Source: Crossaster papposus (Eukaryota; Echinodermata; Asteroidea; Velatida; Solasteridae). Taken from it: DNA of 64,000 bases. Positions 8,621 through 64,000 of the stretch are shown in pieces. Each line of letters starts with the position of its first letter. Position 1 is the stretch's first letter. The position numbers and the translations under genes are program-made. The notes under the pieces are model-generated. The model did not search any database. It saw only the letters and a list, made by a program, of their open reading frames with translations, and was not told the DNA's origin. Location of the stretch: NCBI GenBank assembly GCA_037893245.1, contig JBAIAA010000120.1, positions 62,001-126,000 on the forward strand. Direction: 5' to 3'.

Positions 8621-9171
8621 ACAAAAGGAAAACGTATCGAGTGTTCCTAGCTGTTTGAAATGTGTTTACTGGAACAAGTATGGTGGCCCTGAAAGGACAT
8701 CACATTCCAGATTTGTGCACAAATAATTGCTATGTCGCAAAATTATTTTATTGCACATTCAATTTTCTGCACAGATTTCTTGCCGGCAAACTAGGTGTCC
8801 AATGATTATCATGGTTGTACACTTCGTATGTACATTGTGTTTGATTAGAGTTTGAATTTTGACATGTCCTATATGCCACCACACAAAATCCCTTGATTTT
8901 TAATGAGAATACTCCGTAAATATGAAAATATATTCAACTAAAATTTACCATCACCAGGGAGACAAATGTCCAATCGCACATGTTAATGTCATGGTTTTAA
9001 TTTGCAGAAATCAGCTATAATAAGACGTTTTGAGTTTAGTATTGAGATTTGATATTGTTTTGGTTTACCAAGAATGTTTACCGCCATGCGCTAGTGACTC
9101 CACAAACCGATCACCAGTGAACCATTGGTTCTTGATCGAACTTGCTCAATGTTTGTCATTATTTTCCACAG

Positions 9172-10388
9172 GTCAACTCCATAGCCTTTCACCTGAAGCA
9201 TGGCACCCTGGCCACGGCCGGTTCCATAGGCAACTTCAGCTTCTGAGACAAAGACGCTCGGACCAAACACAATTAAGACGTCTGACGAGATGGAGAACCC
9301 AATCTCTGCCACCTATGACGCCAAGGGCAATATATTTGCCTACGCAAACAGCTATGATTGGTCAAAGGTCAGTATACAACTATTGACTTTCAGTAATCGA
9401 CTATTGACTGTCAATATCCAACTATTGACTGTCAGTAATCAACTATTGATTGTCAGTATCCAACTATTGACTGACAGTAATCAACTATTGACTGTCGGTA
9501 TTCAACTATTGACTGTCAGTAATCAACTATTGACTGTCAGTAATCAACTATTGACTGCAAGTATTTAACTATTGACTGTCAGTGTTCAACTATTGACTGT
9601 CAGTATCTAACTATTGACTGCCAGTATCTAACTATTGACTGCCAGTATTCAACTATTGACTGTCAGTGTTCAACTATTGACTGCCAGTATCTAACTATTG
9701 ACTGTCAGTATTCAACTATTGACTGTCAGTGTTCAACTATTGACTGCCAGTATCTAACTATTGACTGCAAGTATTTAACTATTGACTGTCAGTGTTCAAC
9801 TATTGACTGCCAGTATCTAACTATTGACTGTCAGTAATCAACTATTGACTGTCAGTGTTCAACTATTGACTGCCAGTATCTAACTATTGACTGTCAGTAA
9901 TCAACTATTGACTGCCAGTATTCAACTATTGACTGCCAGTATCTAACTATTGACTGCAAGTATTTAACTATTGATTATCAGTACCTGACTGACTGACAGT
10001 ATCCACTATCCACTTTCAATATTGACTACCAGTCTTGAACTATTGACTACCAGTATCCACTATTGACTGTCAGTATTCAACTATGGAAGTCCTCATTGAT
10101 AGATTGATAGAAAAATAATAAATTAAAACAGTTCCTGTCATAAATCTGGGTTAAAATTTCCCATTTTTGACGGTCTACAACTCTGCTGAAAATGAGTTCG
10201 CAAGTATTGTAGTTTGCACACAGAAGAAAAACTTGGGGAAAAAAACCCAAAATTGTTATTTTATTATTATTATTTTTGTTGTTCTCTTTTGTCAGGGTCA
10301 CGAGATCTACATTCCGCAAAAGAAGAATCACGTCTTCCTCAGAGCAACTGCGATGGGGGAACTTCGGCCCAGAAACAGGAAGAGATGA
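9172..10388 (+). pseudogene. Partial RAE1 duplicate: last two exons only
   Basis: Copy of RAE1 exons 9 and 10. The exon-9 copy (9172-9367) keeps the AG acceptor and GTCAGT donor but is 196 bp instead of 195. It has TGA at 9244-9246 in place of the Trp of [11 protein letters not shown], and frame changes follow. The exon-10 copy (10296-10388) is still fully open, with the same length as the parent and the same PQKKN and RPRNRKR motifs. Between them lies the same 21-bp minisatellite as in the parental intron. No copies of exons 1-8 were found. Homology continues at least 250 bp past the stop, so this is a DNA-level segmental duplication, not a retrocopy. It lies in inverted orientation to the intact gene. 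Confidence 0.88.
9369..10085 (+). repeat. 21-bp minisatellite in the RAE1-copy intron
   Basis: About 34 units of 'caactattgactgtcagtat' type (21 bp) start right at the exon-9-copy donor. Unlike the large parental array, many units carry 'agtaatcaac' or 'agtgttcaac', so the two arrays diverged and expanded separately. Confidence 0.9.
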
Positions 10389-31673: not shown

Positions 31674-34600
31674 TTATCTCTTCCTGTTTCGGGGCCGAAG
31701 TTCCTCCATCGCATTTCCTCTTAGGAAGATGTAATTCTTCTTCTGCGGATTGTAGAATTCGTGACCCTGATAAAAGAGAAAACAAATTAAAAGAATAAAA
31801 CACCAACAATTTAATGACTTATTTTTTCCTGGGTGCAAACTATAATACTTGCGAACCAATTGTCAGTAAAAATTTAACCCAGCTTTATGACAGCGACTAT
31901 TTACTTAGCTTTGTTCTAAACAAATTGCTATACTTGAATACTGGCAGTCAATAGTTACATACTGGCAGTAAATACTTGAATACTGGCAGTCAATACTTGA
32001 ATACTGGCAGTCAATACTTGAATACTGGCAGTCAATACTTGAATACTGGCAGTCAATACTTGAATACTGGCAGTCAATACTTGAATACTGGCAGTCAATA
32101 CTTGAATACTGGCAGTCAATACTTGAATACTGGCAGTCAATACTTGAATACTGGCAGTCAATACTTGAATACTGGCAGTCAATACTTGAATACTGGCAGT
32201 CAATAGTTGAATACTGGCAGTCAATAGTTGAATACTGGCAGTCAATAGTTGAATACTGGCAGTCAATAGTTGAATACTGGCAGTCAATAGTTGAATACTG
32301 GCAGTCAATAGTTGAATACTGGCAGTCAATAGTTGAATACTGGCAGTCAATAGTTGAATACTGGCAGTCAATACTTGAATACTGGCAGTCAATAGTTGAA
32401 TACTGGCAGCCAATAGTTGAATACTGGCAGTCAATACTTGAATACAGGCAGTCAATACTTGAATACTGGCAGTCAATACTTGAATACTGGCAGTCAATAC
32501 TTGAATACTGGCAGTCAATACTTGAATACTGGCAGTCAATAGTTGAATACTGGCAGTCAATAGTTGAATACTGGCAGTCAATAGTTGAATACTGGCAGTC
32601 AATACTTGAATACTGGCAGTCAATAGTTGAATACTGGCAGTCAATACTTGAATACTGGCAGTCAATAGTTGAATACTGGCAGTCAATAGTTGAATACTGG
32701 CAGTCAATAGTTGAATACTGGCAGTTAATAGTTGAATACTGGCAGTCAATAGTTGAATACTGGCAGTCAATAGTTGAATACTGGCAGTCAATAGTTGAAT
32801 ACTGGCAGTCAATAGTTGAATACTGGCAGTCAATACTTGAATACTGGCAGTCAATACTTGAATACTGGCAGTCAATACTTGAATACTGGCAGTCAATACT
32901 TGAATACTGGCAGTCAATAGTTGAATACTGACAATCAATAGTTGAATACTGGCAGTCAATAGTTGAATACTGGCAGTCAATAGTTGAATACTGGCAGTCA
33001 ATAGTTGAATACTGGCAGTCAATAGTTGAATACTGGCAGTCAATAGTTGTATACATGTACTGGCAGTCAATAGTTGTATTATGGCAGTCAATAGTTGTAT
33101 TATGGCAGTCAATAGTTGGATCCTGGCAGTCAACAGTTGGATCCTGGCAGTCAATACTTGAATACTGGCAGTCAATAGTTGAATACTGGCAGTCAATACT
33201 TGAATACTGGCAGTCAATAGTTGAATACTGGCAGTCAATACTTGAATACTGGCAGTCAATAGTTGAATACTGGCAGTCAATAGTTGAATACTGGCAGTCA
33301 ATAGTTGAATACTGGCAGTCAATAGTTGAATACTGGCAGTCAATAGTTGAATACTGGCAGTCAATAGTTGAATACTGGCAGTCAATAGTTGAATACTGGC
33401 AGTCAATAGTTGAATACTGGCAGTTAATAGTTGAATACTGGCAGTCAATAGTTGAATACTGGCAGTCAATAGTTGAATACTGGCAGTCAATAGTTGTATA
33501 CATGTACTGGCAGTCAATAGTTGTATTATGGCAGTCAATAGTTGGATCCTGGCAGTCAACAGTTGGATCCTGGCAGTCAATACTTGAATACTGGCAGTCA
33601 ATAGTTGAATACTGGCAGTCAATACTTGAATACTGGCAGTCAATAGTTGAATACTGGCAGTCAATAGTTGAATACTGGCAGTTAATAGTTGAATACTGGC
33701 AGTCAATAGTTGAATACTGGCAGTCAATAGTTGAATACTGGCAGTCAATAGTTGAATACTGGCAGTCAATAGTTGAATACTGGCAGTCAATACTTGAATA
33801 CTGGCAGTCAATACTTGAATACTGGCAGTCAATACTTGAATACTGGCAGTCAATACTTGAATACTGGCAGTCAATAGTTGAATACTGACAGTCAATAGTT
33901 GAATACTGGCAGTCAATAGTTGAATACTGGCAGTCAATAGTTGAATACTGGCAGTCAATAGTTGAATACTGGCAGTCAATAGTTGAATACTGGCAGTCAA
34001 TAGTTGTATACATGTACTGGCAGTCAATAGTTGGATTATGGCAGTCAATAGTTGGATTATGGCAGTCAATAGTTGGATCCTGGCAGTCAACAGTTGGATC
34101 CTGGCAGTCAACAGTTGGATACTGATGTTCAACAGTTGAATACTGGCAGTCAACAGTTGGATACTGGCAGTCAACAGTTGGATACTGGCAGTCAACAGTT
34201 GGATACTGGCAGTCAACAGTTAGATACTGGCAGTCAACAGTTAGATACTGGCAGTCAATAGTTAGATACTGAGAGTCAATAGTTGGATACTGACGGTCAA
34301 TAGTTGGATACTGACGGTCAATAGTTGGATACTGACGGTCAATAGTTGGATACTGACGGTCAATAGTTGGATACTGACGGTCAATAGTTGGATACTGACA
34401 GTCAATAGTTGGATACTGACAGTCAATAGTTGGATACTGACAGTCAATAGTTGGATACTGACAGTCAATAGTTGGATACTGACAGTCAATAGTTGGATAC
34501 TGACAGTCAATAGTTGGATACTGACAGTCAATAGTTGGATACTGACAGTCAATAGTTGGATACTGACAGTCAATAGTTGGATACTGACAGTCAATAGTTG

Positions 34601-37600
34601 GATACTGACAGTCAATAGTTGGATACTGACAGTCAATAGTTGGATACTGACAGTCAATAGTTAGATACTGACGGTCAATAGTTAGATACTGACGGTCAAT
34701 AGTTGGATACTGACAGTCAATAGCTGGATACTGAAAGTCTATAGCTGGATACTGACAGTCAATAGCTGGATACTGACAGTCAATAGCTGGATACTGACAG
34801 TCAATAGCTGGATACTGACAGTCAATAGCTGGATACTGACAGTCAATAGTTGGATACTGACAGTCAATAGTTGGATACTGACCTTTGACCAATCATAGCT
34901 GACTGCATAGGCAAATATATTGCCCTTGGCGTCGAAGGCGCAGGCCGAGATTGGGTTCTCCATCTCATCCGACGTCTTGAGTTTGGTCCGAGCGTCTTTG
35001 TCCCAGAAGCTGAACTTGCCGTTGGAGCCAGCCGTGGCCAGGGTTCCGTGATCCGGGTGGAAGGCTATACAGTTGACCTGGGGGAAAACAAAATTACAAA
35101 CACTGGTTGAACAAATTTCCTGAACAGCACCCTCTATTGGTTGAAGTGTGCATGAAGGCTGCCCTCTATTGGTTGAGAAGTTCATAAAACAGCCCCCTCA
35201 ATAGGTTGAGAGAAGTTGATGTCGGTTGACTAATATTTCCACAGTCCAACTTACGGCAAATATATCTTGGTAGGAGTAAGTGGACGCGCCGTTGGAGCGA
35301 TGACACTTGAACGTAAAGTTGTCTTTTCTGAAAAACAAATAGCACAATGAAAAAACATTACTTTGATAGTAAATTATGAGGAATATAGGGGCAGAAAAAT
35401 AGAGGTTAGATGACATTTCTGTTTTCTTTAGTGCTACCGATGTGATCAACCTTGGCAATTGTGAAAACTTTTCTATTATTTTAAGTCTCCCTTTTTTGCT
35501 GTAGTTTTAGTAAAGCTGCTGTTTTGTGAAACTTACAGGTTATTACTTTTCTCTGTTGGTTCTTCAGTCAGAAATAAACAGATTAAAAGTGTTTTTTTTC
35601 AAAGACTAGCGCAATTACCAATTTTCGTTAATTAAGGGTTGTGTGGCTTCTGACTAGCGCCCCTAAACAAAGAAATTGACCAATTTGGGAAATTGCCACC
35701 ATAGGGGTGGATAGCTCAGTTGGTAAGAAAAATGGAACGGCAATCCGAAAGGTCGCTGGTTCAAACCCCACTCCAGTCAATTTCTTTGTAAAATTTTGTT
35801 TTAACCAGTTCGCGCCGGGATTATTTTAACATCACCGAGCCGACGCGCGGGATAATTTGTAACGAACCTCGATCCGAGGCGGGTTCAGGCCGATAATACC
35901 GGGAAGCACACCCACGCATTTTCGGCCTTGCTCGCTGCTGACAGACATTTCCGGCCTTGGTCGTGGCGTGTTTATGCGTCATACGTTTTGTATCTGGGGA
36001 AAACCTTGCGTTTATATACGTCATCCGGCGCGAACTGGTTAAATAATTAAAAAAACAAACATTAATTTACAGTGTTATATTACTAGCTTCCTACTTACGG
36101 AGTTGCAGGAGGTTCAAACTGTATGGCACATCTGCCTTCTATGCTGCCCAGCGCGTAGCCCGCCGGACCGGTCTTCTTAGAATCTTGGAATATAGCCACG
36201 CATCGATGCTATGGTCGGGAGCACATGAAGATACGGTTAATTTGGGTAATGATCAAGTGCAAGAGTTTGTCATTTCAGTTCTTGTATAAGTCACAGCTTG
36301 TCACCAGAAGTCACCGCAAGTCAGTAAGTTATTTCAAGTCATCACAATTTATTGTAAGGCATATGTCATGGCAAGCCATAAGATGGCGTTGCAGGTCGTC
36401 GCAGGTCGTCGCAGGTCGTCGCAGGTCGTCGCAGGTCGTCACAGGTCGTCACAGGTCGTCACAGGTCGTTGCAGCTCATGGCAGGTGGTGGCAGGTGGTG
36501 GCAGGTCGTCGCAGGTCGTCGCAGGTGGTGGCAGGTCGTCGCAGGTCGTCGCAGGTCATCGCAGGTTGTCGCAAGTCATCGCAGGTGGTCGCAAGGGGTC
36601 GCAGGTAGTCGCAAGTCGTCGTAGGTCGTGGCAAGTTGTGGCAATACATAGCAAGTCAACAAAAATTTCCCCAAGTCATCCAATCGCTAGTCAAGTCTCA
36701 ATTCATCACAAAGAACCAAGACAAGAGTCCTTCCTCTGTCATTGGTTCGTTTGATCCCCTTCAACCTTGTGATCCAACTAACGAATCACCTGGGATTACC
36801 TACCTGAAATTTTAGCGGTGACTCCTGATTCACCTTGACCTCCTGCGGACCGCTTTCCAGTCGGTACAAGTTGATCTTCTTCCCGGCAAGGCCGACCACA
36901 GCCGATGGATACACCTGCAAACAAGAGCAAGAAGCCATTAACCCTAACCCCTGAACCCTAACCCTGAACACTAACCCCCTAGGCTCTCGCACTAGTTGAG
37001 AACAATTCCCGGCCTCTCAATTTAATGTTCATACTGGGACATGCACTATGACTTGTTTTGGTAGAATCTAGTTTTTTTGTGGTCTAAATTTGTTTTCTTC
37101 TTAATTTGTATAGCATTTATGTCAATTTCTGAATCATGAAGGTGTCATTCCTATCAAGTTTCAGAAAAAAACATAAGGGGGTTTTTGAAACTTTTCCTTC
37201 GTCTTTGGCAAATCAAAATGGAAGCCAACGGACGTATTCTAACGGTTGGATTCATATCAATCGATCGAATGCTTCTGAAGCACAACAGGCATCAGAATGT
37301 GGCTGGAATTCTCGCAGATGGGAACTTGAAATCACCTTAACCCTAACCCTGCCAGATCCAGCACAGTGCATCTGTGGTGACTGCTTGACCTTGCTGCACT
37401 CTGCACACAAGTCAATGTGACAAAGTATGCAATCTGTTGCGTCTGGCAGGGTTTCTAGCCAAAATACCCTGGAGGGTTAGGGTTAAACCTCAGACAAAGA
37501 CAAAGCCAGGAATTCAAAAAGGCCCTTGCAATCAAAGAATTCAAATCTTTTTAGCATCAGGTATTTATTATTTTTTTTAAATCGAAACAGCTACCAGACA

Positions 37601-42303: not shown

Positions 42304-42804
42304 GTAAGTAATCATGAGGACATTGATCGGGAGTATGAGTTAGTCTTTTGGCAAGTGTTTTTATGCTTTATCCTATAAATTCTGACGGAATGGCAAGTAC
42401 GTTACTACTTTTTGCCGGCGAAGAAATGAAAACAGCGCCCTCTTTTGAGGTATATTCTGTTTTACATGTTTCAGTTGCGCATGCCTAGCAGAGCGCCCTC
42501 TGTAGGCAGAGAGGAACAACACCACGATGATAAACACGCTATCATAGTATCAAGTATCATCTTGGTATAATGTATGTTTGTTATAGATATACTGCGCTGA
42601 ATTCAAGATGGCCTCGGATTCACACAAAGCATTATAGCCTATGACGCATTGAAAAAACCTATACATTTATAATACCATTTATTTAATATCGCTGTTGTCC
42701 ATTAAATTTTTCTTAATTGTTACGACAACGTTTTAATTTCTAATTCTATTACCTGTTTCCAATCGTAGTTTTGACCCGACCAACTCGGTAACGTTGATCC
42801 CACC

Positions 42805-45800
42805 ATGCCGCTCTTTTGTCGATTCTACGAGCAGCTTTACCCAGAGGTTGAAGATGTGGTCATGGTCAACATCCGCTCCATCGCCGAGATGGGAGCCTAC
42901 GTCAACCTCCTGGAGTACAACACCATCGAGGGCATGATCATGCTGAGCGAGTTGTCAAGGCGACGTATCCGATCCATCAACAAACTGATCAGGGTCGGAC
43001 GCAGCGAGTGCGTGGTTGTCATCCGAGTGGACCAGGACAAAGGTCTCACAAAATCTTACGACTACGCAGGGATGTAGTTGAGTCCATCACAAGTCCCTGC
43101 AAGTCCCTGTAAGTCCCTGCAAGTCCATCACAAGTCCTTCAGTTCCAAATCATATCACAAGCTATTCAAATCAGCTTTGACAAAGGCATTCCTTTATCAT
43201 TGTTCATCTAGTTACTTGTGACTGCCTTTATAAAGGGACTTGTGACTGGCTTCACGAAAGGACTTGTGAAAGGACTTGCAGGGACTCGACTACAACCCTG
43301 CGACTACGGCCGTTGTCATGGTCTCAACAAGGAGGATTTTAACCAGTTCGCGCCGGAGGACGTATATATACATGCAATGTTTTTTCCCAAGATTCAAAAT
43401 GGATGACGCATAAACACGTAACGAGCAAGGCCGGAAATGTCCGTCAGCAGCGAGCAAGGCCGGAAATGCGTGGGTGTGCTTCCCGGTACCATCAGAGTGA
43501 ACCCGCCTCGGATCGAGTTTCGTTAAAAATATTCCCGCGCCTTGGCTCGGTGATGTTAAAATAATCCCGGCGTGAACTGGTTAACCCTAACAAAATCCAT
43601 CATGCTTTAGCCCCATAAATAAATGTGGCTCAAACAAATGTGGACTTCCTCCATATATAGAGCCACAAATCGACCCGCACAAAAAGAAGGGAAAAGTCTA
43701 TGGGCGCCAAAAATGAGATTCAGGCTATTTGAGGATACCGTATCTTCATATATTCAGATATTTGAGAATTCTGTATTTTTAGATGTCGAAAAATGCTTAT
43801 TATTAGGTAAACAAAAATTCCCAAAAGTTGTTTTGTAAAAAAACAAAAAAATAACTTCAACATTTGATTTTAATTTTTTTACCGCCCTTAGACCCTGTCA
43901 AATTTCATGTTTAATATGTTCGTAATCCAATAAATAAAATAAATGCTGGCCTAACATTGTATGAACTTAAATTTTATTAGAGTTTTTTTTCTTTTCTTTT
44001 TTTCTTGATAAGGTTACATTGATTTGTCCAAAAGAAGAGTATCGACAGAAGAGATTGCCAAGTGTGAGGAGAAGTTTGCAAAAGCTAAAACAGTAAGTAA
44101 TCAAATAGTACACGTTCATGGACTGCACCTTTAAGTTTGTCTCTTATTAATGGGGGCCAGTGCAGCACATCAGCTGTGCTTTGTCAAGGGTATCTTTATC
44201 AGAAATTGGCATTATCTTATTTAAAGGTAGGATACACCATTTGCAGATATCGAAAAATGTTTACAACCGAATTATTAAGAAATATCTTACTCATTTGAAA
44301 GTAAAAATAATGATTGTAGGCATCCAGCAAAATGATTGCGCTAGATATCCTATAATTGTTCCGAAAAATTGAAACAATAACAACATAAGAACCACTGCCC
44401 GACACCGGTTGAAAACTGTACTTTTTCACGTGTTCAACTTTGTAAAATCTTCACCTTTAGGTCAACAGCATCTTGCGACACGTTGGTGAAATCCTTCACT
44501 ATGACAGCGACAGTAAACTAGAAGATCTGTACCAGAAGACAGCATGGCACTTTGATCGGAAATACAACAGGCCTGGCTACGGCGCCTTTGAAGCCTTCAA
44601 AACTTCGGTCAGGTAATAGGAAACTTAAACATTAGTACACATTTTAAAAATAAAACGCTCCTGCGTTTCCAGAATATATATTATGAACTGTTGAATGGGA
44701 TGGTGTCGGACTATTTTTGCATTCTTGCCTCACATTTAGAAGAAAAAAAATGTCATGTGGTTTTAAAAAAACCTAACCCTCCAGGGTATTTCGGCTAGAA
44801 ACCCTGCCGGATCCAGCACAGTGCATCTGTGGTCACACAGACTTGTGTGCAGAGTGCAGCAAGGTCAAGCAGTCACCACAGATGCACTGTGCTGGGTCTG
44901 GCAGGGTTAGGGTTAAGGTGTGTTTTATCACAAATTTTTAATTATTCATCAGAGAAGATAGGTAATTAATTTGACTTTAGGTTATTTCTATCGGCATGTT
45001 CCAAAAATGAAGATTTTACCTCGCTTCCAATTCATAATGGCCGACTCGCGAATAAAGTTCATAGGAAAAAAACAAAAACAGAGGACTCCTTGCAAATATA
45101 CATGTTGCGATGGTAAACTCTTTTAAAAAAAGGTTAATAAATGAACATCGAAAAGACAACATGAATGCATTTTTTTAAATCTGGCTGTCAAAAATTTAGG
45201 GTAGCGCCATAACCTGGAAAAAGTTAAAAGGTTTTTGCCTAAGCAAAACAACAATTTTGTTTAAATACTTTTAGCGACCCCGCAATACTGGACGAGTGCC
45301 AGTTGGATGAAGAAACAATGAAAGTATTGATGGAGAACATTCACAGACGGTTAACACCACAGGCCGTCAAAATCAGGGCAGGCAAGTATTCGATCATTTT
45401 GACAAATTCATTAGTATGACCCAATTCAATTAGTACCCTAACATTCTTATTTGTAGAATGCATTGGGCCAGAGGTTACGGAGTACGTTCGACTCATGTAC
45501 GATGGTGTCTTGGTTCGAACCCTGCCAGGAACATGGTGTTTGTGCCCTTGGGCAAGACACTTAACTACAATTGCCTCTCTCCACCCAGGAGTATAAATGG
45601 GTACCTGTGAGGGTCGAGGTCGATTAACCCTAACCCCCTTGGCCTTACTTTGGGCTAAAGAACTGCATACTACTTAGTATTTTGTAGCACTGGGTCTCTC
45701 TGTGACTGATGATTGGGTGTGTACTGACAGAGTACAGATACTGCCAACTACAAAATACTAATAGTGGCAATACAGGTCAGTAATACTTACCTGGCAAAAA

Positions 45801-49382: not shown

Positions 49383-49798
49383 TTAAAGGTAGGATACACC
49401 ATTGGTAATTGCAATAACTTAATAATAGGAATGGGTGGATGTTGTTGTTGGGGTTGTATTTTATAGTAAATATTGTTTAAATGAGCTGTCCGACGTTTTA
49501 CAGTCATTGATGCCGAGAAAAGCAAGAAAAACGGCGTTCGTTTTCAACCGGCGTTTGGCAGTGGTTCTTATGTTGTTCTTGTTTTTTTTTCTCGAGATCT
49601 GGCGATCGCGAATGTTTATATAGAATAATGTTTATATAAAATTCAATTTTTCATAACAATTGCAGGATATCTAGCGCAATCCTTTCGCTGGATGCCTACA
49701 ATCATTATTTACTTTTATATAAGTAAGATATTTCCTAATACATGTAATTCGATAGTTAAATAGTTTGATATCTGCAAATGGTGTATCCTTCCTTTAAA
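49383..49798. mobile_element. MITE-A full copy
   Basis: TTAA, 'aggtaggatacaccattgg' and right 'gcaaatggtgtatccttcct', TTAA. It lies between EIF2S1 and the fusion gene's stop, so probably in the latter's 3' flank. Confidence 0.88.
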
Positions 49799-49988
49799 CT
49801 ACATGTACATTAATTAGTACATGTTCTGGGGCATTTTGCCCTCTTTTAATGTTCATATAAAAAACCACTTTTCTGCATGTATTGAAAGCACACACCCTTA
49901 CGAACTGGCACAGCTTGTACATGTTCCAGGGCCACTTTTATCCATATTCCTGCTGGTGGCCCCTCAATTTTGATCCATGAATACCTTG

Positions 49989-52900
49989 TTATTCAGGTTG
50001 CATAACCAGTACAGTCTTACCCCTGGCGTGTCCTTTCCGTACATGTTCCAGGGCCTTGTTGCCATCCTCCAAGCTAAACACCCTCTCCACGATAGGTTTA
50101 ATCTGGAAAACATGAATTACTGTCACTGTCAGCCATCTCAAAGAAAAATAAAAGTACTGGGGGGGGGGGGGGAACTTGTTTTGAAAGGTAGGATACACCA
50201 TTTGTAGATATCGGAAAATTGTATTACCATATTTTAAAGAAATATCTTACTAGTTTTAAAGTAAACAATGATTCTAGGCATCCACCAAAATGATTGCGCT
50301 AGATATTCTGTAATTGTTCAAAAAAAATCACGATCGCTGGACAACATAAGAACAACTGCCCAACGCCGGTTGAAAACAAACGCCATTTTTTCTTGCCTCT
50401 CTCAGCATCAAAGATTGTAAAACTTCGGACAGGTCAGTTAACCAGTTCGCGCCGGAGGACGTATATACACCCAAAGTTTCCCCCAGATCCCAAACGGACG
50501 ACGCATAAACAAGTCACGAGCAAGGCCGAAAATGCGTGGGTGTGCTTCCCAGTACCATCGGCCTGAACCCGCCTCGGATCGAGTTTCGTGAAAAATAATC
50601 CAGCGCCTCAGCTCGGTGATGTTAAAATAATCCCGGCGCGAACTGGTTAAACGATATTTACTATAAAATACGTAACCTCGCCAAATCCACCCATTCATGA
50701 TAATTCAAGCAATTCCCACCTTTAAGACAACATTTCCATAAAATGTTACCTTGTTCTGTTTTACGAGACTTGCGACAACATCCAAAGCATCTGCGCTGGG
50801 AGCGAAAAAGCCGTACTTGAAACTTCTTCCGTATAACAACTTCTGTTCCACAGAAAATAAAAGCCAATTATCAATTTTGGTCAAATAAAAAAAATATACA
50901 CGATCACAGGGATGTGGATTTAAAATCATAGGGTATTTTTGTGACAAAGACTGGAGCGTTTCAATACAAATAATATTTTACTACAAAGTAATCTATTCTG
51001 GCAAAATGAGGCGGAACAGCTACGGCACAGAACACAGTAAAAACTGCAAAATAATAAATATTGTGATTTTTTAAAATAATTTTTAAGATTGATATTTGTA
51101 ATCTTTGGTATGCCTACTAACTAAATTTTGTCAAGAAATAGTATGGAAGGAGTGAAATAAAAAGGTTTTTAAGGAAAAAATAATTGTCATTTGTCCATAT
51201 CACATTTAATAAACCTTAAAACTTCAAAGGCCTTTTTCTCGACATTTTACTTTTGCGATACGTCGATAAATGCGAACTTTAAATGCAACAACAGCATTGT
51301 AAAAGGTGTTTTTTGTTATAATACCGGACAACCTTCATTTAAACATCTGCCCAGTTATGTCTCAGTTTGCCAGAACCCCTCAAATCTTTTGGGTGGGGGG
51401 GAAAACGAGAAAAATACTTATCACTTGCCTGCGGAACGCTGATCCGCAACAGATCAAAGAGGGCCTTAGGTTGCCCCAGGTAAAAGCCGTACTTGTCCAA
51501 CGTTGACAGGTACGGGGAGACCACGGTGACGGTACAGCCCCCTCGCTTGGTCAGATTGAGACAGGCCTGGTAGGAAGCGGGGCCGAGGGTGTCGAGCACA
51601 ACATCAAACCTTACAAACAGAGAAACGAGGAGAAACAAGTCTGCGTGACACGTTCTACAAAGTAGACAATGGGATGATCGCTAGAATTGCAAAGGACGCA
51701 GCTACAACGTGGTCGAGCCGCTGGCACGTAAAGGCGCCTCTGGCAGCCGGCCACATGGACTCATATAGGACTACGGAGCACAGCCTGAGATCGAAAGTGT
51801 ATCATTTTTCCTGGAGAGAAGAAAACTGTAGAGCCCGGGGAAAAACCCTCGTGGCACAGGAGAGAACCATCGCAGGACTTGACTCGCATATGGTCCGGGC
51901 CGGGAATCGAACCCGGGTCACATTCATCCGAGGCGAGCACTTTACGCACAGTCCACCCATGCCACCCACCAAATCGTGCTGCCCATTTTTGCACCACACA
52001 CACAATGTCAGGTTACGGTTATTTTTTAATGAAATATGGTGTACGTTGATTGTCAATTACCGTGGCTTGTCCTTGAGGGCGCTCTCCAAGTCCGTCTTCG
52101 TGTAGTCCACCACATCGTCCGCTCCCAGCTTCTCAACCATCTCTCGGCCGCTAGTGCTACAGCTGGTGGTCACATGACCTCCCCACGCCTTGACCAGCTG
52201 GATGGCAAAGGAACCGACGCCGCCGGTACCAGCCAAAATAAGAACGCTGACAGTTGGAAGAAACAAAAAAATCAACAAAAATCAAAGAGTGCAATTAATT
52301 GACCTATATCCAATTGTGATTTATGCTGCGTTCCAATCGCGTCGTGTTTATCGTGTTCACTGTGAATTTCTTCATGTTCACGAGTGGGTTGCATTCCAAA
52401 CGCTACACACCACGACGCACGCGCACATGGACTCTCAAATTTGTATCCTAGTGGAGACATATCTCTTTGTTCTCGTGTACAAACTGCTTAAAAAGTCGGG
52501 CACCTTTTTCAAAATGCTCCTATTTCAACCACAATTAATTTCCTGGGTTGAAATTTCGACCCAATATACCCTATATCATACCCTAACCCAAACACTAACC
52601 CTAACCCACATCCTAAACCTAGTTTTTGATCAATTTGAGGCACACTCCAAAAATCTAATTCGTGAAATTCCCTGTGGCGACCTATTCATCTATAGAAATT
52701 TACCCTCCGGCGTCCTTTTGTCTCCATTATACACATTGTGTTCAGGTCTCCAGAGGGTACCGAATTTCAGATCAGTCGAGTTAGTTGTGCGGTAAGGACA
52801 TTTCCCGCACGAGAACTCTAACCCAGGGCCCCCAGGGAGAACAGTTCTTAGATAACTGATGGGGCTACCCTGGTAAAATAAAACGAAATAAATAAATAAA

Positions 52901-55900
52901 TAAATAAATAAACGTGAACCAACACGCATGCACGAGTATTTCATTCGTTTATGAAGTCCTGAACATGGAGACAAAAAATCCACCTCGAGTTCACCACTGG
53001 TTACTAACTTACCGTTTGCCAGCTGTGTTCTCCGGGCCCAGCCCGGCCGTTTTCACAAGCGCTCCCCACGTTGTCATGGCAACGTAAGTCAAGGCTGCCG
53101 ACTGAACATAAGAGAGTGAGGGGGGCTTCTGGGAGACTTGCCCTTCCTTGAGCAGAGTGTACTCCGCAAAGCTTCCCGGCATGACTGGCAGTCGATTTGC
53201 CGCCCACACCTAACACAAACAAATCAACCGGTTTTGTACAAAAATATAACCAGCATGGTACATAAAAAAGACATTGCCAGTTAGATCCAGGCAAGTCATT
53301 TTAAAGGTAGGACACCATTGGTAATTGCTTGAATTATTATGAATGGGTGGATTTGGGGGGTTGTATTTTATAGTAAATATCGTTTAACTATACCTGTCCG
53401 AAGTTTTACAATCATGAATGCCGAAAAAAGCACAAAAAAGCAGTGTTTGTTTTCAACCGGCGTCGAGCAGTTATTCTTATGTTATTTGTGTTTTTTCTTG
53501 ATCGCTGTCCGACGATCGCAAACTTTTCTTTATAAAATTATATTTTCCAGAATAATTAAAGGATATCTAAAGCAATAATTTTGCTGGATGCCTAGAATCA
53601 TTATTTACTTTCAGATGAGTAAGATATTTCTTAATAATTCGGTAGTAAATCTTTTCGATGGTACAAATGGTGTATCCTACCTTTAAATGTTCAGCTACCC
53701 ATGAGTTGGACTGTGTTAGATTGAGCAGAAAATTCATGTCTCTGTTGGATTTGGCAGGCAAGTCCTGGGGAACTAATTTGGGGGTTAGTTTTCAAGCTAA
53801 ACCACGGTTTCCAGAACAGCTGGAAAAACACAAGCAGTTTGAGAAGAACAAACAAAAATTCAACGACAATATAGTTCATAACAAAAGCATGTCTATCTGT
53901 ACCTCATCTCCAACTTTGACCTTTGACACAGCCTCTCCTACTGCCACCACGACCCCGGTGCAATCTCTCCCTAGAATCAGCGGAAACTCCTTCCCGTCAC
54001 CAGCAGACATCTGCAATCGTGAACCCATGTTGTACCATTAGCTCGACTCGGTGCATATGTCTAAGCTAGTCTTTGTCAAAATCAGTTCTCGACAGTCGCG
54101 TAAAATCTTTTAACGCCGTGGGCCTGCAAATTAACGACTCGATTATAGATCAGCTCCTCTACTCATAGTTATACTGTCTTCTCTGAAACGTGCCAAAATG
54201 GGGCGTAAATTTGTCATGCAAATTCGACCATAAATGCTTAGGAGATTTAAGCAGTGAACTGCTCATCCAAAAAAAAAAATTTGAAGTAATTTTTGACAGC
54301 TGAAGCCATTAAAGGGATCGTATACGTTTGGTAATTACTCAAAAAAATTATGGCAATAAAAACTTACTTGGTAAGAAGTAGAGCAGCTTTGGATAGTATA
54401 ATGCATTTTTTGAAACTTTTCACTCCGAAGTACTGCGGTACTTTTTATCCCCAAAAATTTGAATCTGAGAAGTGCTTCTGCAGTGACGTTTCTCAGAGTG
54501 TGTATTCCAATGCAGATTATTCTTCCTGCATGGACAAAAACCGCTCCAGAATTTTGACAATTTCTCAAAATCGTTACCTTATGAAATGAAATTTGTACAG
54601 GTTAGTTTTATGGTGTATATATCTGTAACTATATAAGATTGAAACAAACAGTGGGTTCCAATTACCAAACGTATACGATCCCTTTAATAAGTAACCAAGA
54701 AAAACTTTAAAGATACCTTCGCTATTCCACGCAGAAAATTTAGCGGCACCTTCCCGTATCCTTCCCCCATCTTAACGTCTACAGGGTTGACGGACGACGC
54801 TTGGACCCTCACGAGAATATCGTCCCGTAGGACCACCTTGGGCCTAGGGTGTTCCTCGTAGACCGCTGGCGTCTCGTTCCCGTACGCCTTTGTCAAGAGC
54901 GCCCTCATGCGGTGGATGCTAGAGAAGTAGACCATTTTCGTGGCTGCGTGGGCTTTCTTGTGGCATCGGTACAGCACGCCAGCCCAAAGCGCGATCAGGC
55001 CAGCGTTTATCATGGTAGACGACACTGCAAATGAATTTTCAGAAACGTTGACAATTACACACACAAAAAAAACAGTTAAAAATTTGACTTGCATGACTTA
55101 TAATTACATTACATTACATTACATTAATATTTATAATGCGCTTTTCCCAAAAGGCTCAAAGCGCGTACAATTATAAAATGTTACTTAGATATACTTACAA
55201 TAAAATAGTTACATTAAAACTAACAATTGAAACAATTAATGATTGCAGAATAATACAAAGGTAGGAAAATTATACAAAAAGATGCGTTTTCAAAGATTTT
55301 TTGAAGTTATTTACAGAGGTAGAAGATCTAACTGAGATCGGGAGATTGTTCCATGCACGGGAGGCACATACAGTGAAAGTTCTATCACCGGCCTGTACTC
55401 TTGTTCTAGGATATTAAAGTCGTAGGATATCATCTCCAGATCTCAGGTTATTTCTTCTTGGAACATAAGGGAATACAAGTGTGGTTTGCCAGTTTTAAAG
55501 AAGTATATTTCTAAAACTGGCTCATGGGCCTAGACGCGTTAATGCCCGAATAGAAGGAGAGGGCACTAACAATGTTCAAGCCAATGAGCCAGTTTTAAAC
55601 CAGTTCGCGATCGCGAGAAAAAATGAAAAAAAACAAGAACAACTGCCCGACGCCGGTTAAAACAAAAACGCCGTTTTTCCTGCTTTTGTTTTCTCGGCAT
55701 CCATGATTGTAAAACTTCAGACAGGTCAGTTAAACGATATTTGTGACCTGGCACCACGAAATGAGCACATTGCCAAAACGAGTTATTGGCCGAAACGTCA
55801 ATTTTTCAAGTGCGAGGTCGTTTTGGAGTTGTTAACGTTTTTACATATAAAAAAATCTTCTTTATCATTTCCCAAAATTGTATAGCTCAATTAAAACTCT

Positions 55901-58900
55901 AAAGTGTTTTTTTTTGTATGGCTTAATTGCACTGATTGGTAGTATAGTTGGCACAGTTCACGGACTTTGAACTCCGTTTTCTCAAAACAAGGGAGCATGA
56001 TGACTTAAGCCATGTTCGCACTGGACTTAAAATGATAAAACATACCTAGACGATGGGTCCTTTTCCCATTTTAAGTCCAGTGCGGACAGCCTAGGACGTT
56101 TTCCTCTCAGGTACTTCTCCCGAGTCCAGTGGGTACTTCTACCGGCCAACTGCTGCCCGGGAAAACGTCCCTGGTCACTTTTCCCTAGACGATAAGTCCA
56201 GTGCGAACAGCGCGACTCGGTAAAAACGTCCCACCCGGCCCTCCAGTGCAAGGTCACGCTATACAAAAGGCACTGCGCATGCGCTCTTTGCATTGTTTAC
56301 ATGCGGGCACGCTGATACATGCAAATCGCATCGTGATCACATTCGCACGTGGTTCTGCAAAAAGATTACGTAGAGTTGGGGTTCCTTTGGTCAATATTAT
56401 GGCAGATATTATTATTGATACAGTCGGAAGTTTGATTGGTGCTACCAGTGCATCATTTCAAAATGATAATAAAGAACGTCAACGTGTCTTACGACGAAGG
56501 AAAGCACGACAACGGATGCAATACCGTACCTACAATGGCATGGCGTCAATGATTTGATCGGGAAAAAAGCGCGCGCGCGCAAACGCGAATGGGTACACCG
56601 GGGTCAATGCAAAAAGGTCACGCAAAGCGCCCTCACGAGTCATTATAATGACAGCTTGGCTACTTCTCCCACGGTCTCGGTAAAATTTTCCCGTGTCGAA
56701 AGTCCAAGTGCGAACAGTGGTAACATTTGACCATTTTTTATTTTCCCATCGTCTCAGTAAAACCTTCCCAAAAAAAAGTCCAGTGCGAACACGGCTTTAA
56801 GCTATTTCAAAAGAGTATAGCGGCGCCTAGGAATAAGCTACATCAACTCACAATACATCATTTGAAAGCTAAGGACTTCTTCTTTCTAGAAATGTAATAA
56901 TGGCAACTGTTTAATTTCGCGATTTTCCACCCATTTCGTGGTGCCAGGTCATCACATTTACTACAAAACACAACCCCCTAAATCTACCCATGGTGTATCC
57001 TACCTTTAAATTGAACTTACTTCCTGTAGTATCTGCAATCGATGGGTACGGAAGAAAGGCCACACACAGTGGAAGTAAGACAGTCAACGAGACAGCTGGC
57101 ACCCAATTGGGACGGACTTCTTTCTCGAAACATCTGATGCTGTTCCCTAGAAACTCCTGGATGTCTGAGAATTGAGAAAAAAAAGACAAACTTGCCACTT
57201 GGACTGTGACATACACTTTTGAGTGAAGCTCATATGTGACCCGCTCCATCAAAATCAGGAATAAGTCTCAAAATGACTTTTTGAGATATGCACATGGTGA
57301 GAAAGGAAAATTCATAAGCTTTCTAATGATACCCATCACAAGTGTGTATCTTCTTAGGTTAACGAGTTATGGTCGGATGAAAATGACAAGTGTATATTTA
57401 TTTGCCGAATTCACATTCCGAGAAAAACAGCTTTGAAATAAACAAAATTGACCAAAATCATACGGACAGCGCACACAAATCCTCTTCATTTTCATCTTTA
57501 TTGATCGTTTTTACATACAAGGCATTAATGACAATAATTTGTGATAACTACACTTCCTAAAAATACAATGTTCAGAAAAACGACTTGGTCAGGATTTTCA
57601 CCCATGCGTTCACTTCAACGGCCGATTGCGTAAAACGGCCCCATCGACTTATTCCTGATTACGATGGAGCGGGTCACATATTATTTACTGGTTTCACACT
57701 AAGCTGTTACTCGGGTGATCCTAGCGTTATTAACAAAATATATAATGCATTAAATATATAATGCATTTCTCTGGGTTACGAATTCTCAGGGTTAAAGGTA
57801 GAAATATTGACCTTATTTGAAAGTAAATAATGTTTGTAGGCATCCAGCAAAATGATTGTGCTAGATATCCTATAATTGTTCAGAAAAATAGATTTTTATA
57901 TAAACAAAAATAATAATCGCCGGACGGCAATCCCGAAAAAAAAAGAACAAGAACAACATAATGACCACTGCCTGACGCCGGTTTAAAACGAACGTCGTTT
58001 TTTCTTGCTTTCCTCGCTTTTTTTGGCATCCATGATTGTAAAACTTTGAACAGGTCAGTTAATCAGTTCGCGCCGGAGGAGGTATATACACAGATCCAAA
58101 CGTCTGTTAAACAATTATTACTTTACTATAAAAATATTATATTTACTATAAAATACAACCCAAAATTCACCCATTCATGATAATTCAAGCAATTAACATT
58201 GGTGTATCCTACCTTTAAATTATGCCGAACGCCATTTTTTTATTTTTATGCAAATTATTCTTCAATATTTGTTGGAGACTTACAGTTGTTGATGACCAGA
58301 ACCGGTTTCGGTGGAAGAGTACCATTGGCCACAACTTCTTTCTGAAAAGCCTCGTCTTTGACCAGACGCCTGTACCACGCCAGCACTGCCGGGTACCGGC
58401 CCATCTCGAACAGGTAAATGAATCTCTCGACGTAACGGTAGACATTGCAACCCCAGCAGTAATCGGCCAAGGAGATCCGATCACCGACGAGCCATTCGTG
58501 TTGCGCAAGGTGCCCTTCAAGAGTCTGTAGCGCACTTCATCAAGGAAATTTAGAAGAAACCTAAAATGTAATTCCTTTTCTAAATCATCAGTGCCGAAAT
58601 GGAAACAGCGAACATATCAAAACCCAGTCGTAACTCAAAATCGACAACAAGTTCAATAAATATGATTTTGTTTTAGTTTTTTTACTTGTCTAGACTTACT
58701 CGTGAATTTTCTCGATGGCCCCATGAAGATCTTCGTCTTTCCAGGACCCTTCCCTCACCATCTTGTGGAACGCGTAGCCCTCCGGATTCTTCTCTTTCAG
58801 GCAAGCGAGACGCTCGTCGGTCTCCATGAACTTGGCAAAGTTCCCGAAGAGAAAGCGGAAGGTCATATATTTCATGGGTTTTTGGATCGTGCAATCCAGG

Positions 58901-60603
58901 TCCAGCCAGGAGTGGACGGCTTGCTTGCCTTCCCTAAAGGCAAAAATAAATATATGCAAAAACAACATCGACTGTAGAATGGGACTCGAACCAAAGACCA
59001 CCATTTCACAGTATTGATGGCGCAGAATGTTGCTTACAACAAGTGAGCAGAGTATATATTAGGTCGTGGATATTAGATATTTAGCCCCCCTGCTTTCTCC
59101 AAAGGTCGTATACGTACAAAGAAATAAAAATGGTTACTACCAAATTATCAACCCTTTAAACTCCGGCCTGTTTTCGAAAATTTTGTATGTGTTGCTAGTT
59201 TGTATATACAAATATCATTTGCAGTGTACAAATCCCATATAATCATTGGAAAGCTTTCAAATAGAGCTATATTTTGGGGGAATATTTGGACCCCCAGGAG
59301 CTTTTAAGGGACTTATAAGTCAGATGTAGCGCGGGGCTGAGTGTAAAGGGTTAAGAAATATCTTACTTATTTGAAAGTAAATAATGATTCTAGGAAACTA
59401 GCAAAATGATTGCGCTAGGTGTCCTGTCATTGTTCTGAAAATGTGATTTTTGTAAAAAAACAATTGTGATTGCCCTCCGGAATACAAATTTTCAGACTAG
59501 GAAACAATATACTATTTTGAGACTCGAACCCACACCCTTACGGCGTATTTGGTCGCAGGGGTATTTCTGGAAAAGCCTCGTCCAGATAGACCATGATATC
59601 CGACGATTCAATGTGAGTGACTCCATCGTGAACCAGTGCGGGAACCAGGCCCTGCGGGTGGATGGCAAAGTACCAGTCGGACTCCATTTCTTTTTGCGAC
59701 ATAACCCGGCTTTGCCATTTCAGCTTTTTGGCCTCCAGGCAGACACGAACCTATGAAAAGATAAACAAAAATTTTATTTAATTCAGCGATCTAATTCCCC
59801 ATTATGCCCAGCCTGACATTGATGATACTCTATAGGCCCATCACTCTTGGAACCCGACTATAGTCTGGTTCCAAGAGCGATATCAGAATATTATTGTCAA
59901 TGTGAGGTTGCATATGTCGGGAATTGAGATTGCCGACTGCCGTAACGATAGCCACTATAAAAGTATAATTGCTTGAATTATCAGGAATGAGTGGATTTGG
60001 TGGTTATATTTTATAGTAAATATCGTTTAACTGACCTGTCCGAAGTTTTCAAATCATGGATGCAAGAAAAACAGCAATCGTTTCCAACCGGCATCGGGCA
60101 GTTAAAGTTCAAGTTAAAGTTTTCCGCGACCATCGGCAAATCGCCGTCTTGCAATCGTGAATTTTGTTCATAACAAATTCAATTTTTGGAACAGTACAGT
60201 AATCAGTATCTAGCACAATCATTTTAATTTGCTGGATGCTTAGATTAGAATAATTAATTACTTTCAAATGAGTAACTAATAGATATTTCTTAATAATTTG
60301 GTAGTACAAATTATCGATATATGTATATTTGCAAATGGTGCATCTCACCATGGAGGGATTCCTCCAGACCATGGTCTAACAATGTTAAACTAAAAAAAGT
60401 ACATCATGTATGATGTAGACAGTGCTGCACAGAGTGTTGTGCAGGGCCATACTGACTACATGGACTAGGGCTTGTTTTGTGTCAGACGTACCCAAGTGTA
60501 GGCAGTTTTCACTGACCTTTTGCGAGGCATTTGACGGTCCCAAGTGGAATAAACACAGCCCTTCAATCCTCTTGGTGTCTTCGTTTCCTTCGACCACCAC
60601 CAT
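49989..60603 (-). CDS. GST / two-TM / RTN4IP1-like NADPH oxidoreductase fusion, predicted 703 aa
   Basis: Twelve exons: 60603-60517, 59750-59542, 58933-58700, 58534-58284, 57164-57021, 55024-54717, 54010-53903, 53209-53013, 52246-52061, 51609-51429, 50842-50750, 50102-49989. Phases match at every junction. Residues 15-95 are a thioredoxin-like GST N domain (GPSNASQKVRV, cis-Pro LVPALV, glutathione-binding ESSDI). About 105-250 is a GST C domain (LVGDRISLADY). TM segments lie near 281-299 and 313-327. Residues 340-703 are a whole MDR reductase of the RTN4IP1 type (NPVDVKM, LGRDCTG, NADPH motif AGTGGVGSF at about 518, C-terminal GHARGKTV). An in-frame TAA lies upstream of the ATG. Intron 10 starts GC. 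The GST part most resembles GDAP1-like GSTs; RTN4IP1 is a mitochondrial NADPH oxidoreductase. Two separate genes remain possible, but exon 5 has no Met and exon 4 has no stop before its donor. Confidence 0.82.
50183..50724. mobile_element. MITE-A copy split by MITE-C
   Basis: Left part from 'aggtaggatacaccatttg', right part ending 'aattcccacctttaa'. The family phrase 'caggtcagttaaacgatatt' is opened exactly at TTAA by MITE-C (50438-50650). It lies in intron 11 of the fusion gene. Confidence 0.88.
50438..50650. mobile_element. MITE-C copy 4, nested in MITE-A
   Basis: TTAA, 'ccagttcgcgccggagg' and right 'cccggcgcgaactgg', TTAA. The empty site is known from other MITE-A copies (for example 55724-55740), which proves TTAA as target. 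Confidence 0.92.
51000..51270. repeat. Dispersed repeat also seen in RAE1 intron 4
   Basis: 'gatatttgtaatctttggta' and the following 'gcctactaact' to 'gataaatgcg' match about 38240-38430. It is of unknown class. Confidence 0.5.
51640..51975 (-). repeat. tRNA-like SINE, minus strand
   Basis: The minus strand reads 'ggactgtgcgtaaagtgctc' and a strong B box 'cgggttcgattcccggccc'. The body continues downstream on the minus strand. It lies in intron 9 of the fusion gene. The acceptor arms are not paired, so it is not called a tRNA. Confidence 0.45.
53300..53687. mobile_element. MITE-A full copy
   Basis: TTAA, 'aggtaggacaccattgg' and right 'aaatggtgtatcctacct', TTAA. It holds 'caaccggcgtcgagcagtta'. 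It lies in intron 7 of the fusion gene. Confidence 0.88.
54309..54687. mobile_element. MITE-B copy 3 (TTAA-flanked)
   Basis: TTAA, 'agggatcgtatacgtttgg' and right 'ccaaacgtatacgatccct', TTAA. It lies 29 bp from the donor of exon 6 of the fusion gene. Confidence 0.88.
55095..55560 (-). repeat. Retroelement tail with (acatt) microsatellite
   Basis: 'attacattacattacatta' is followed by 'aatgcgcttttcccaaaagg' and 'ctcaaagcgcgtacaatt', a form common at 3' ends of CR1/L2-like elements and their SINEs. The rest (to about 55560) resembles a decayed retroelement but no RT motif is visible. Confidence 0.4.
55742..56956. mobile_element. TGTGACC-type element (1.2 kb) with nested insertion
   Basis: Ends 'tgtgacctggcaccacgaaa' and 'tttcgtggtgccaggtca' then 'tcaca' are inverted. 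It splits MITE-A with a TT duplication. About 800 bp of it is a further insertion (56005-56800), so its own body is about 420 bp, like MITE-D. Confidence 0.82.
56005..56800. mobile_element. Innermost nested element, TTAA at both edges
   Basis: Left TTAA then 'gccatgttcgcactggactt' and right 'aagtccagtgcgaacacggc' then 't' and TTAA. The 118-codon open frame at 56201-56557 has a basic C-terminal stretch (RRRKARQRMQYR) but no family I recognise. It may be a remnant of an element protein or chance. Confidence 0.75.
57235..57678. mobile_element. TGTGACC-type MITE with TA duplication
   Basis: Ends 'tgtgacccgctccatcaaaa' and 'gattacgatggagcgggtca' then 'ca', inverted. TA stands on both sides (57233-57234 and 57679-57680). 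It lies in intron 4 of the fusion gene. Confidence 0.87.
57792..58219. mobile_element. MITE-A copy with MITE-C fragment in its TTAA
   Basis: MITE-A from 'ttaaaggtagaaatattgac' to 'ggtgtatcctacctttaaa'. At 58059-58100 'cagttcgcgccggaggagg' of MITE-C is joined at the same internal TTAA used at 50438. Most of the MITE-C body is deleted. Confidence 0.78.
59353..59475. mobile_element. MITE-A internal fragment
   Basis: 'aagaaatatcttacttattt' and 'gcaaaatgattgcgctagg' match the family. Both ends are missing. Confidence 0.6.
59955..60350. mobile_element. MITE-A copy with decayed ends
   Basis: Carries 'gtaaatatcgtttaactgac' and 'ccaaccggcatcgggcagtt', and ends 'gcaaatggtgcatctcacc'. It lies in intron 1 of the fusion gene. 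Confidence 0.72.
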
Positions 60604-61820
60604 CTTGAAGTGAAGAGCAGGGACTTTCAGTTATGGCCTGGGTCTTAATATTGGAATATGGCCGGGTCGAAGCTATGGTCGAAGCATAAACAGCACTTCA
60701 CCTCTGTTGCAGCAGGACAAAGATTTGCATGAGTAATTACACAGCTTACAAATGCTCATGACATTGGCAAAATACTAATAAAATCGTAGAGAGTCAAGGA
60801 CACGAGCACTCATGCCTTTCAAGTTTCATTCAATCTGGAACCTCATATAATTCAAGGTCAAAGGTTATGAATATATGAATATTAATACGATATGCTCAAA
60901 CCGCGCCGCCCTCAACGTACATGCCTGGTCGGCAGCAAAAGGAGTATTCCTTTCTCAGGGTAAGGAGGCCTGTTCAGTACATACAGGATAAACTTTAGTT
61001 ATTTTAAGAACGCAAATCATGATACCAGTGACAAATAAATACCCAGTTATAATAATTGCCGACAATATGTTTACTACTGTCTCTACACACAAAATTAAAC
61101 TATTGTTACAATCGTGGACAATTTTATAAATTTGTGCATGAGAAAATGTGGTTTTCAAGTTGTAAAGATATCGCGGTCACCCAACTTACCCTAGTATTAA
61201 TTCGCTCCCCGTTGGCGGCGCCGCGCTATAGGCCTATTTTCTTTATAACCGCAGTGAGCCAATTCTCGTCGGACATCCGGGAACCTCGTTTATCTTCCCA
61301 TTGTTGTTAATGTTTGCGCCAATGATTTGCACTTTAATAGGGTAGAAATATCATTCCAGTTCCAACCAATCACAAACGTCGATGCCGTATTAAATTGGGC
61401 TAAAAAGTAGGTGAAGGGTTACCCGGTCTAATTACGTGGGAGACTTTAAGTTGAACAAGTTGAAGGAAATTCCCAAAATGTTTATTTTCGTAAATAACAT
61501 TTTGGAGCTATATATAGCTCCATCAGGATATTCATAAACAAAACTAGAAAACATTTTTACAGTGACAATTATTGTGTAGCGAGCGCGCAGCCACTATTTA
61601 CGATGTGGCCGGCCGGAACATTTAGGATTCTAGATATGCTCTGCACTGAGTCTGTGGTGCAATCTGAGGTGATTTCTCATTTGGCCACTTTCCTCGTAAT
61701 TCGTAATCGATTCTACCGATTTTCAGGTGTTTCGTGGTTTTTTTGTGCAATAAAATTTACTTTGCTCAGCAACCGAAGGGGAGGTATAGTGCCCCCCCCC
61801 CCCCCCCACCCCCCCCCCCC

Positions 61821-63157: not shown

Positions 63158-64000
63158 ATGTGGACAGTACCGCTGATCTTTCTCGGATGTGCCGTAATGT
63201 CTTTCATTTTTCTGCCGGCTGAGACAGTCTTACAGCTGAGCGAACTACCGGGTAGGTATCGATCTGTCTTTGACACGAATCAGGAACTAAAACCGTGTCA
63301 GATGAGACTCAAACAAAAACTACCCAAATCGCTCTTTTGACAATAATACAAGCCACAACAAAAATCATATCTCGAATGAAGTTCTTTTTTTTCAACTCTC
63401 TCTTTCAGTAAACAACACAAGCCTGTCTGTACTTTTTACCATCCTGTCCGTCGTCACCTTTATCAGAGATTACATCGACAGCCAAAAAAGTATACGAACG
63501 CGTGACACAGATGCGCCGACTACTGCGACACCTCTCATCACGAACCTCAACAAACCTCACGCGAAGACTATGAAAGGCGTCACCATTGAACACTACGGCG
63601 AGAATAGCGTAACGGTGAGCGACGCGGCACCTCGGCCAGAGCTCAGGTACGCCGAGGAGGTGTTGGTGCGAGTTCGTGCGGCCTCGATCAACCTGGTAGA
63701 TATTCAAATAAGCCACGGGAGAGGTCAGGAATTGTGCAATAGAATGAGGTCCATGCGAGCGGTAAGTTAATTACCTCTGAATAATATTCTTAAACAGGTT
63801 CAAACAAATATTTCGAGTGGCAAAGACCTATATACCTCAACGGAAATGTAACTCAAACATTAACCATGAGGGCGCTAGAGTAATTCCCCTCAATAGTAAC
63901 ACGTCTCAAGGTTTAAGACAAGACCCTGTTGTTACAACTCGACAACCTTTACGGACCTCTTTCCCTCCAGATACCCGCCGGGGGAGGAGACGAGTTTCCC
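63158..64000 (+). CDS. RTN4IP1-like oxidoreductase with two N-terminal TM segments (partial, runs off window)
   Basis: Exons 63158-63251, 63409-63761 and 63971-64000 (cut by the window end), all GT-AG, phases 1 then 0. These are the same two phases as exons 5-6 and 6-7 of the fusion gene on the other strand. Residues 3-22 and about 36-50 are hydrophobic (membrane hairpin). Then comes an MDR N-terminal domain with ILVRV-like EVLVRVRAASINLVDIQ, and the last exon starts as GGGDEFP, matching GDGKEFP of the fusion. The NADPH motif lies beyond the window. A stop lies upstream in the ATG frame (63092-63094). No GST exons are seen within 2.5 kb upstream, so this copy seems to lack the GST part. Substrate is unknown. 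Confidence 0.85.

Follow-up and report, generated by a model that had tools for sequence, protein, structure and literature searches.

A predicted gene of Crossaster papposus that joins GST domains, a membrane hairpin and an RTN4IP1-like reductase

Does a single gene of the starfish Crossaster papposus encode both a GST and a membrane-bound relative of the oxidoreductase RTN4IP1? The question is raised by a locus within a stretch of 64,000 nucleotides (hereafter the window; contig JBAIAA010000120.1, called C120 here, positions 62,001 to 126,000), for which a first-pass annotation had proposed one polypeptide composed of a GST, a membrane hairpin and an RTN4IP1-like reductase. RTN4IP1 itself is described as a matrix oxidoreductase for CoQ synthesis (PMC10830421, PMC12489013), and EEF1G and VARS1 are among the other GST-domain proteins reported to carry additional domains (PMC10452860); a literature search of partial coverage found no paper on a GST-RTN4IP1 fusion. 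We have rebuilt the gene, classified its parts and searched the 1.02 Gb (1841 contigs) of the same assembly. The mitochondrial code fits an echinoderm: over 248 codons of COI set against a generic COI, AAA coincides with Asn at 7 of 7 places, TGA with Trp at 7 of 7, ATA with Ile at 13 of 15 and AGA with Ser at 2 of 4, which is the code of echinoderms and flatworms. Frames resembling ND1 and ND2 by eye stand opposite COI across a tRNA cluster, an order reminiscent of starfish. In our judgement GST, hairpin and reductase probably belong to one gene (a probability of about 0.75) whose product, as predicted from the DNA, is a new domain combination of known parts.

Rebuilding from the minus strand reproduced the single-strand frame first described: 12 exons running from 60603 to 49989 (Table 1), with compatible phases throughout, give 2112 nt, that is, 704 codons comprising 703 residues and the stop. 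Two particulars of the first-pass annotation were recovered in the rebuilt frame, namely an exon 4 that stays open up to a phase-1 GTAAGT donor and an exon 5 whose frame contains no Met. Every intron is bounded by GT-AG except that after exon 10, which is GC-AG with the donor CAG/GCAAGT ('/' being the exon end), and this GC donor is retained in a second copy of the gene on contig C682. Scored with a small leave-one-out matrix, the donor of exon 4 is equalled or beaten by 32 of 704 GT sites and the acceptor of exon 5 by 23 of 584 AG sites; the splice signals at the exon 4-5 junction are good, not exceptional. Exon 4 itself has a weak acceptor (187 of the 584 AG sites in 49500-61000 score at least as high), and so do exons 6 and 7 (171 and 268 of 584).

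Table 1. Positions of the fusion gene and of its divergent neighbour in the window
Feature	Position	Strand	Basis or remark
Exon 1: start codon, GST N-terminus	60517..60603	-	rebuilt frame; ATG retained in C682 copy
Exon 2: GST N domain	59542..59750	-	rebuilt frame, Pfam; 0 non-synonymous differences from C682
Exon 3: start of GST C domain	58700..58933	-	rebuilt frame
Exon 4: end of GST C domain, phase-1 GTAAGT donor, weak acceptor	58284..58534	-	rebuilt frame, Pfam, splice scoring
Intron 4: junction of GST half and hairpin-reductase half, repeat pieces and MITE-like element	57165..58283	-	repeat comparison
Exon 5: linker and first predicted transmembrane segment, no Met	57021..57164	-	rebuilt frame, C682 comparison
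Exon 6: second predicted transmembrane segment and reductase start	54717..55024	-	rebuilt frame, structure match
Exon 7: reductase (ADH_N)	53903..54010	-	rebuilt frame, Pfam
Exon 8: reductase	53013..53209	-	rebuilt frame, Pfam
Exon 9: nucleotide-binding motif VLILAGTGGVG	52061..52246	-	rebuilt frame, Pfam
Exon 10: reductase, GC donor	51429..51609	-	rebuilt frame, C682 comparison
Exon 11: reductase	50750..50842	-	rebuilt frame
Exon 12: reductase end and stop	49989..50102	-	rebuilt frame
Divergent paralogue exon A: ATG and first predicted transmembrane segment	63158..63251	+	rebuilt neighbour gene
Divergent paralogue exon B: second predicted transmembrane segment and reductase start	63409..63761	+	rebuilt neighbour gene
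Divergent paralogue exon C, beginning	63971..64000	+	gene continues past the window in L007, reaching 66858 in window numbering

A domain search of the joined protein, which the first-pass annotation had suggested, found the N- and C-terminal GST domains followed by a medium-chain reductase. Eight of nine Pfam families exceed their curated cut-offs on the 703-residue protein, GST_C_3 falling just under (21 against 21.6), and the C682 copy retains the frame as well; the two together are more than chance would give. The families above cut-off include GST_N_3 (18-91), GST_C_2 (169-233), ADH_N (376-476), ADH_zinc_N (522-604) and ADH_zinc_N_2 (553-698). The domains of the cytosolic GST superfamily score 51.3 (PF13417, cut-off 22) and 44.5 (PF13410, cut-off 24.9), while membership of the MDR superfamily, in its RTN4IP1-like part, is indicated by ADH_N, ADH_zinc_N and ADH_zinc_N_2 and by the nucleotide-binding glycines in VLILAGTGGVG at 514-524. 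None of the NCBIfam models reaches its cut-off for either half, and an identity of the GST with maleylacetoacetate isomerase (zeta GST) was rejected at 65.2 bits against an equivalog cut-off of 171.05. Within the GST half, V65-P66 and E77-S78, both encoded by exon 2, fit what we take to be glutathione-site motifs.

The reductase half is RTN4IP1-like, as first proposed: when the C-terminal 395 residues are compared with solved structures, RTN4IP1 (2vn8) stands far ahead at 261.6 bits, the next entry reaching 112, and the alignment extends over 362 residues. Through this alignment G215 and R103 of human RTN4IP1 map to G521 and R407 of the fusion protein, and both are kept; in the human enzyme G215A, within 208-VLILGASGGVG-218, abolishes activity, and R103H is a patient variant (PMC10830421). 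The fusion protein differs from RTN4IP1 in its added GST and membrane hairpin and in having no evident presequence, its N-terminus (MVVVEGNEDTK) being acidic and, by eye, without one. The mitochondrial location once suggested is weak in view of that N-terminus and of the canonical RTN4IP1 being a separate gene.

The N-terminal 308 residues match many GSTs of solved structure, each weakly, with a best score of 60.4 bits summed over stretches. The GDAP1 family of membrane-anchored, GST-like proteins resembles the fusion in that hydrophobic segments come after the GST N and C domains; the fusion, unlike GDAP1, then has two predicted passes with a reductase behind them. Hydropathy has maxima at residues 281-299 (1.97) and, more modestly, 308-326 (1.36). 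The parallel with GDAP1 drawn at the outset does not extend to closest kinship, for GDAP1 chains are found among the structural matches at 36.9 bits and below and are outscored by several other GSTs, among them 6to3 (60.4, summed over stretches), LigF (51.5) and 4o7h (45.1), so that GDAP1 was rejected as the closest GST among solved structures.

The second copy bears on the gene model. GST exon 2 is present twice in the genome, on C120 and on C682, and for about 40 kb C682 runs broadly collinear with the window, its longer pieces being some 90-98% identical. C682 preserves the 12 exons complete, together with the ATG, every splice dinucleotide and the stop, and shows 54 substitutions and no indels in the 2112 nt of coding sequence; the donor of exon 5 is weaker there (GTACAT), a point against the fusion. 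This copy is either the other haplotype or a recent segmental duplicate. Bearing on that choice, the canonical RTN4IP1 turned up once among the scored genome matches. For C120:1007001-1009500 and C120:1000001-1006000 the scored candidates, both lists of which were swamped by repeats, included no second long copy.

What separates the two halves is intron 4, and the two copies differ markedly here: it measures 1119 nt in the window and 382 nt on C682, while intron 3 is 165 nt in both. In the window, two pieces of the intron (58221-58139 and 58092-57785, 391 nt in total) match interspersed copies elsewhere in the window, and a MITE-like element of 450 nt is bounded by 36-nt inverted arms that match each other (57232-57267 and 57646-57681, 72 nt). 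The C682 copy is without this element and without part of the other repeat, and its intron 4 is itself mostly interspersed repeat, with, by eye, about 40 nt before the repeat and about 65 nt after it. The sequence between the GST and reductase halves thus looks mostly repeat-derived. The hexamer AATAAA occurs in the intron of the window at 58244, 57502 and 57402, whereas both AATAAA and ATTAAA are absent from that of C682, where AGTAAA is present; past the stop in exon 12, ATTAAA and AATAAA follow at 140 and 739 nt in the window and at 138 and 737 nt on C682. An in-frame ATG upstream of exon 5 in the window (about 57249) sits in an arm of the MITE-like element and is missing on C682. There another open frame, which begins in repeat and contains its own in-frame ATGs, continues into exon 5. 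The two copies have no intron 4 ATG in the frame of exon 5 in common.

On the opposite strand, an eight-exon neighbour beginning at 63158 encodes 440 residues with two hydrophobic segments followed by an RTN4IP1-like reductase. All seven of its junction phases (1,0,0,2,2,0,0) agree with the phases that follow exon 5 in the fusion gene, and the two reductases are 43% identical over 352 residues; unlike the fusion, it has no GST and has its own ATG, and an unfused hairpin-reductase therefore stands beside the fused one. The neighbour is intact, ATG included, in both the window and C682 copies, and no match to the GST exons of the fusion was found on its strand. Homology of the first transmembrane exons of the two genes was rejected, 1036 of 2000 shuffles scoring as high, and only their position, phase and hydropathy are retained as likenesses. 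Either the fusion gained a GST or the divergent paralogue lost one. A separate first exon with its own ATG for the reductase half, named in the first-pass annotation as what would tell against a fusion, is thus realised in the neighbouring paralogue, and none was recognised for the fusion gene.

The canonical RTN4IP1 lies elsewhere, on C465, as an uninterrupted open frame of 451 codons from a TTG or 443 from the first ATG, which by eye reads like RTN4IP1 and has a basic N-terminal region; the fusion gene is therefore a paralogue, its reductase sharing 40.5% identity with it over 353 columns, and is not itself the canonical RTN4IP1 of the genome. This canonical gene (L016:4329-5684, minus strand) appears intronless. 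Genome searches returned at least 12 matches to GST_N_3 (six on C8, two on C231 and one each on C120, C682, C577 and C846) and at least 15 to RTN4IP1 (one each on C465, C8, C664, C580 and C756, two on C110 and four each on C120 and C682), these counts being lower bounds because only the best candidates were scored. Among the matches listed, C8, C120 and C682 alone carry both GST and reductase; they are far apart on C8, and GST exons lie beside a reductase on C120 and C682 only. C8 bears bacterial-looking open COX1, reductase and GST genes (L023, L024, L028, L041-L044) and is probably a bacterial contig in the assembly. Viral contigs were rejected as a source of reductase relatives (ten stretches fit a pattern, none encoding a relative), and bacterial and archaeal genomes were uninformative for the GST, 45 stretches fitting a pattern and five encoding relatives at 24-28% identity. 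A search for a spliced retrocopy of the exon 4-5 junction gave no match genome-wide at up to three mismatches, which counts against the fusion.

How, then, might the frame mislead? Two adjacent genes on the same strand could have been wrongly joined, a GST whose end falls within exon 4 or beyond it and a hairpin-reductase with an unrecognised first exon. Chimeric gene models are common in annotation: 30 genomes yielded 605 confirmed cases, invertebrates accounting for 314 and a cluster of 12 GSTs being included (PMC12220653). The divergent paralogue, which matches the fusion in intron phases and begins at an ATG that belongs to it, is exactly such a stand-alone form and keeps this reading alive; the ATGs within the C682 open frame ahead of exon 5 also speak for it. 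The 382 nt of the C682 intron, however, are largely repeat and lack AATAAA and ATTAAA, though AGTAAA is present, and the copies share no start in the frame of exon 5; that one gene could hardly end and the next begin in so small a space is our chief argument for fusion. As the intervening sequence is mostly repeat and candidate starts and AATAAA are not common to both copies, we favour a single fused gene and consider wrongly joined neighbours unlikely. Slightly less probable again is that a fused mRNA would exist beside a GST-only form ending in intron 4, a reductase-only form from an internal promoter, or both. Unspliced, exon 4 runs in both copies to a stop after nine more codons, which would make a GST-only form possible, and Met309, straddling the exon 5-6 junction, and then Met313 offer internal starts; a start at either, however, would drop the first transmembrane segment.

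A different doubt accepts the fusion as real and concerns the work of its GST part, which might be non-enzymatic and act in dimerisation or binding, the role proposed for GDAP1, leaving the reductase to work alone. Between the copies dN/dS is 0.28 overall, being highest in exons 1-4 (0.58), lower in the hairpin part (0.21) and lowest in the reductase (0.09); non-synonymous and synonymous differences number 17 and 8 in the GST half against 3.5 and 12.5 in the reductase (Fisher p 0.011 or 0.004, set by the rounding of half counts). Change between the copies is thus quicker in the GST half than in the reductase, and the contrast implies weaker constraint on the GST or different selection; with 0.58 for exons 1-4 and a value above 1 for exon 4 alone (11 non-synonymous and 3 synonymous differences), constraint on the GST half may be relaxed. 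Against a non-enzymatic GST stand exon 2, with no amino-acid difference between copies, and the VP and ES positions, which are typical of a glutathione site and are kept. GDAP1, which is GST-like with hydrophobic and transmembrane domains, is for its part reported inactive towards classical GST substrates in PMC7873046, within which an earlier study suggesting activity is also cited. A GST without catalysis is a serious contender in our view, if short of an even chance. Amino-acid differences between the copies cluster in exon 4, perhaps under relaxed or positive selection.

The window holds other features of note. Interspersed repeat pieces (ggtaggatacacca and its continuation) recur in introns 1, 2, 4, 5, 7 and 11 of the fusion gene. 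A 995-codon open frame of a QYPTIDC-type minisatellite lies beside a RAE1-like WD-repeat exon (31908-35197, minus strand), and a second RAE1-like fragment with LLTVSIQ-type repeats is found at 9024-9565 on the plus strand, the names in both cases being given by eye. Six places in 12474-28533 (minus strand) carry one recurring open frame, 90-113 residues long (QEAYRTGDAIPTGIWTKFTLNKTF and variants). Also recognised by eye were a GPCR-like open frame (4384-5577, minus strand) and an EIF2S1-like exon (42775-43074, plus strand).

The full proposal, that a GST was joined 5' of an RTN4IP1-paralogous hairpin-reductase and that the two are expressed as one 703-residue protein, we hold to be somewhat better than evenly supported. 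On this proposal, a GST-like gene would have been joined, via a short phase-1 intron since filled with repeats, to the 5' side of a hairpin-reductase gene, one mRNA would serve both halves, and two membrane passes near residues 281-326 would leave the two soluble domains facing one side of the membrane; from the positive charge of the flanks, this may be the cytosolic side of the ER or of the outer mitochondrial membrane. The C-terminal half may carry out NADPH-dependent reduction of quinones or enones, and the N-terminal half may bind glutathione and perhaps conjugate the same electrophiles. The single GST-hairpin-reductase polypeptide of the first-pass annotation stands as the best-supported gene model (frame, Pfam, 2vn8 match and C682 copy), and the chemistry that it was said to couple is something that we infer. 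We read the product as a putative membrane-anchored two-domain protein handling quinones or enones, catalysis by its GST being uncertain; that it should be a bifunctional membrane-anchored detoxifying enzyme, treating quinones and enones at NADPH and glutathione sites and conserved across starfish or echinoderms, seems to us doubtful.

If expressed as one chain, the protein would physically link glutathione conjugation with the NADPH reduction of conjugated carbonyls or quinones, and it would tether a relative of RTN4IP1 to a membrane. With an unfused hairpin-reductase next door, the locus would also let one ask how a GST was gained, or was lost by the neighbour.
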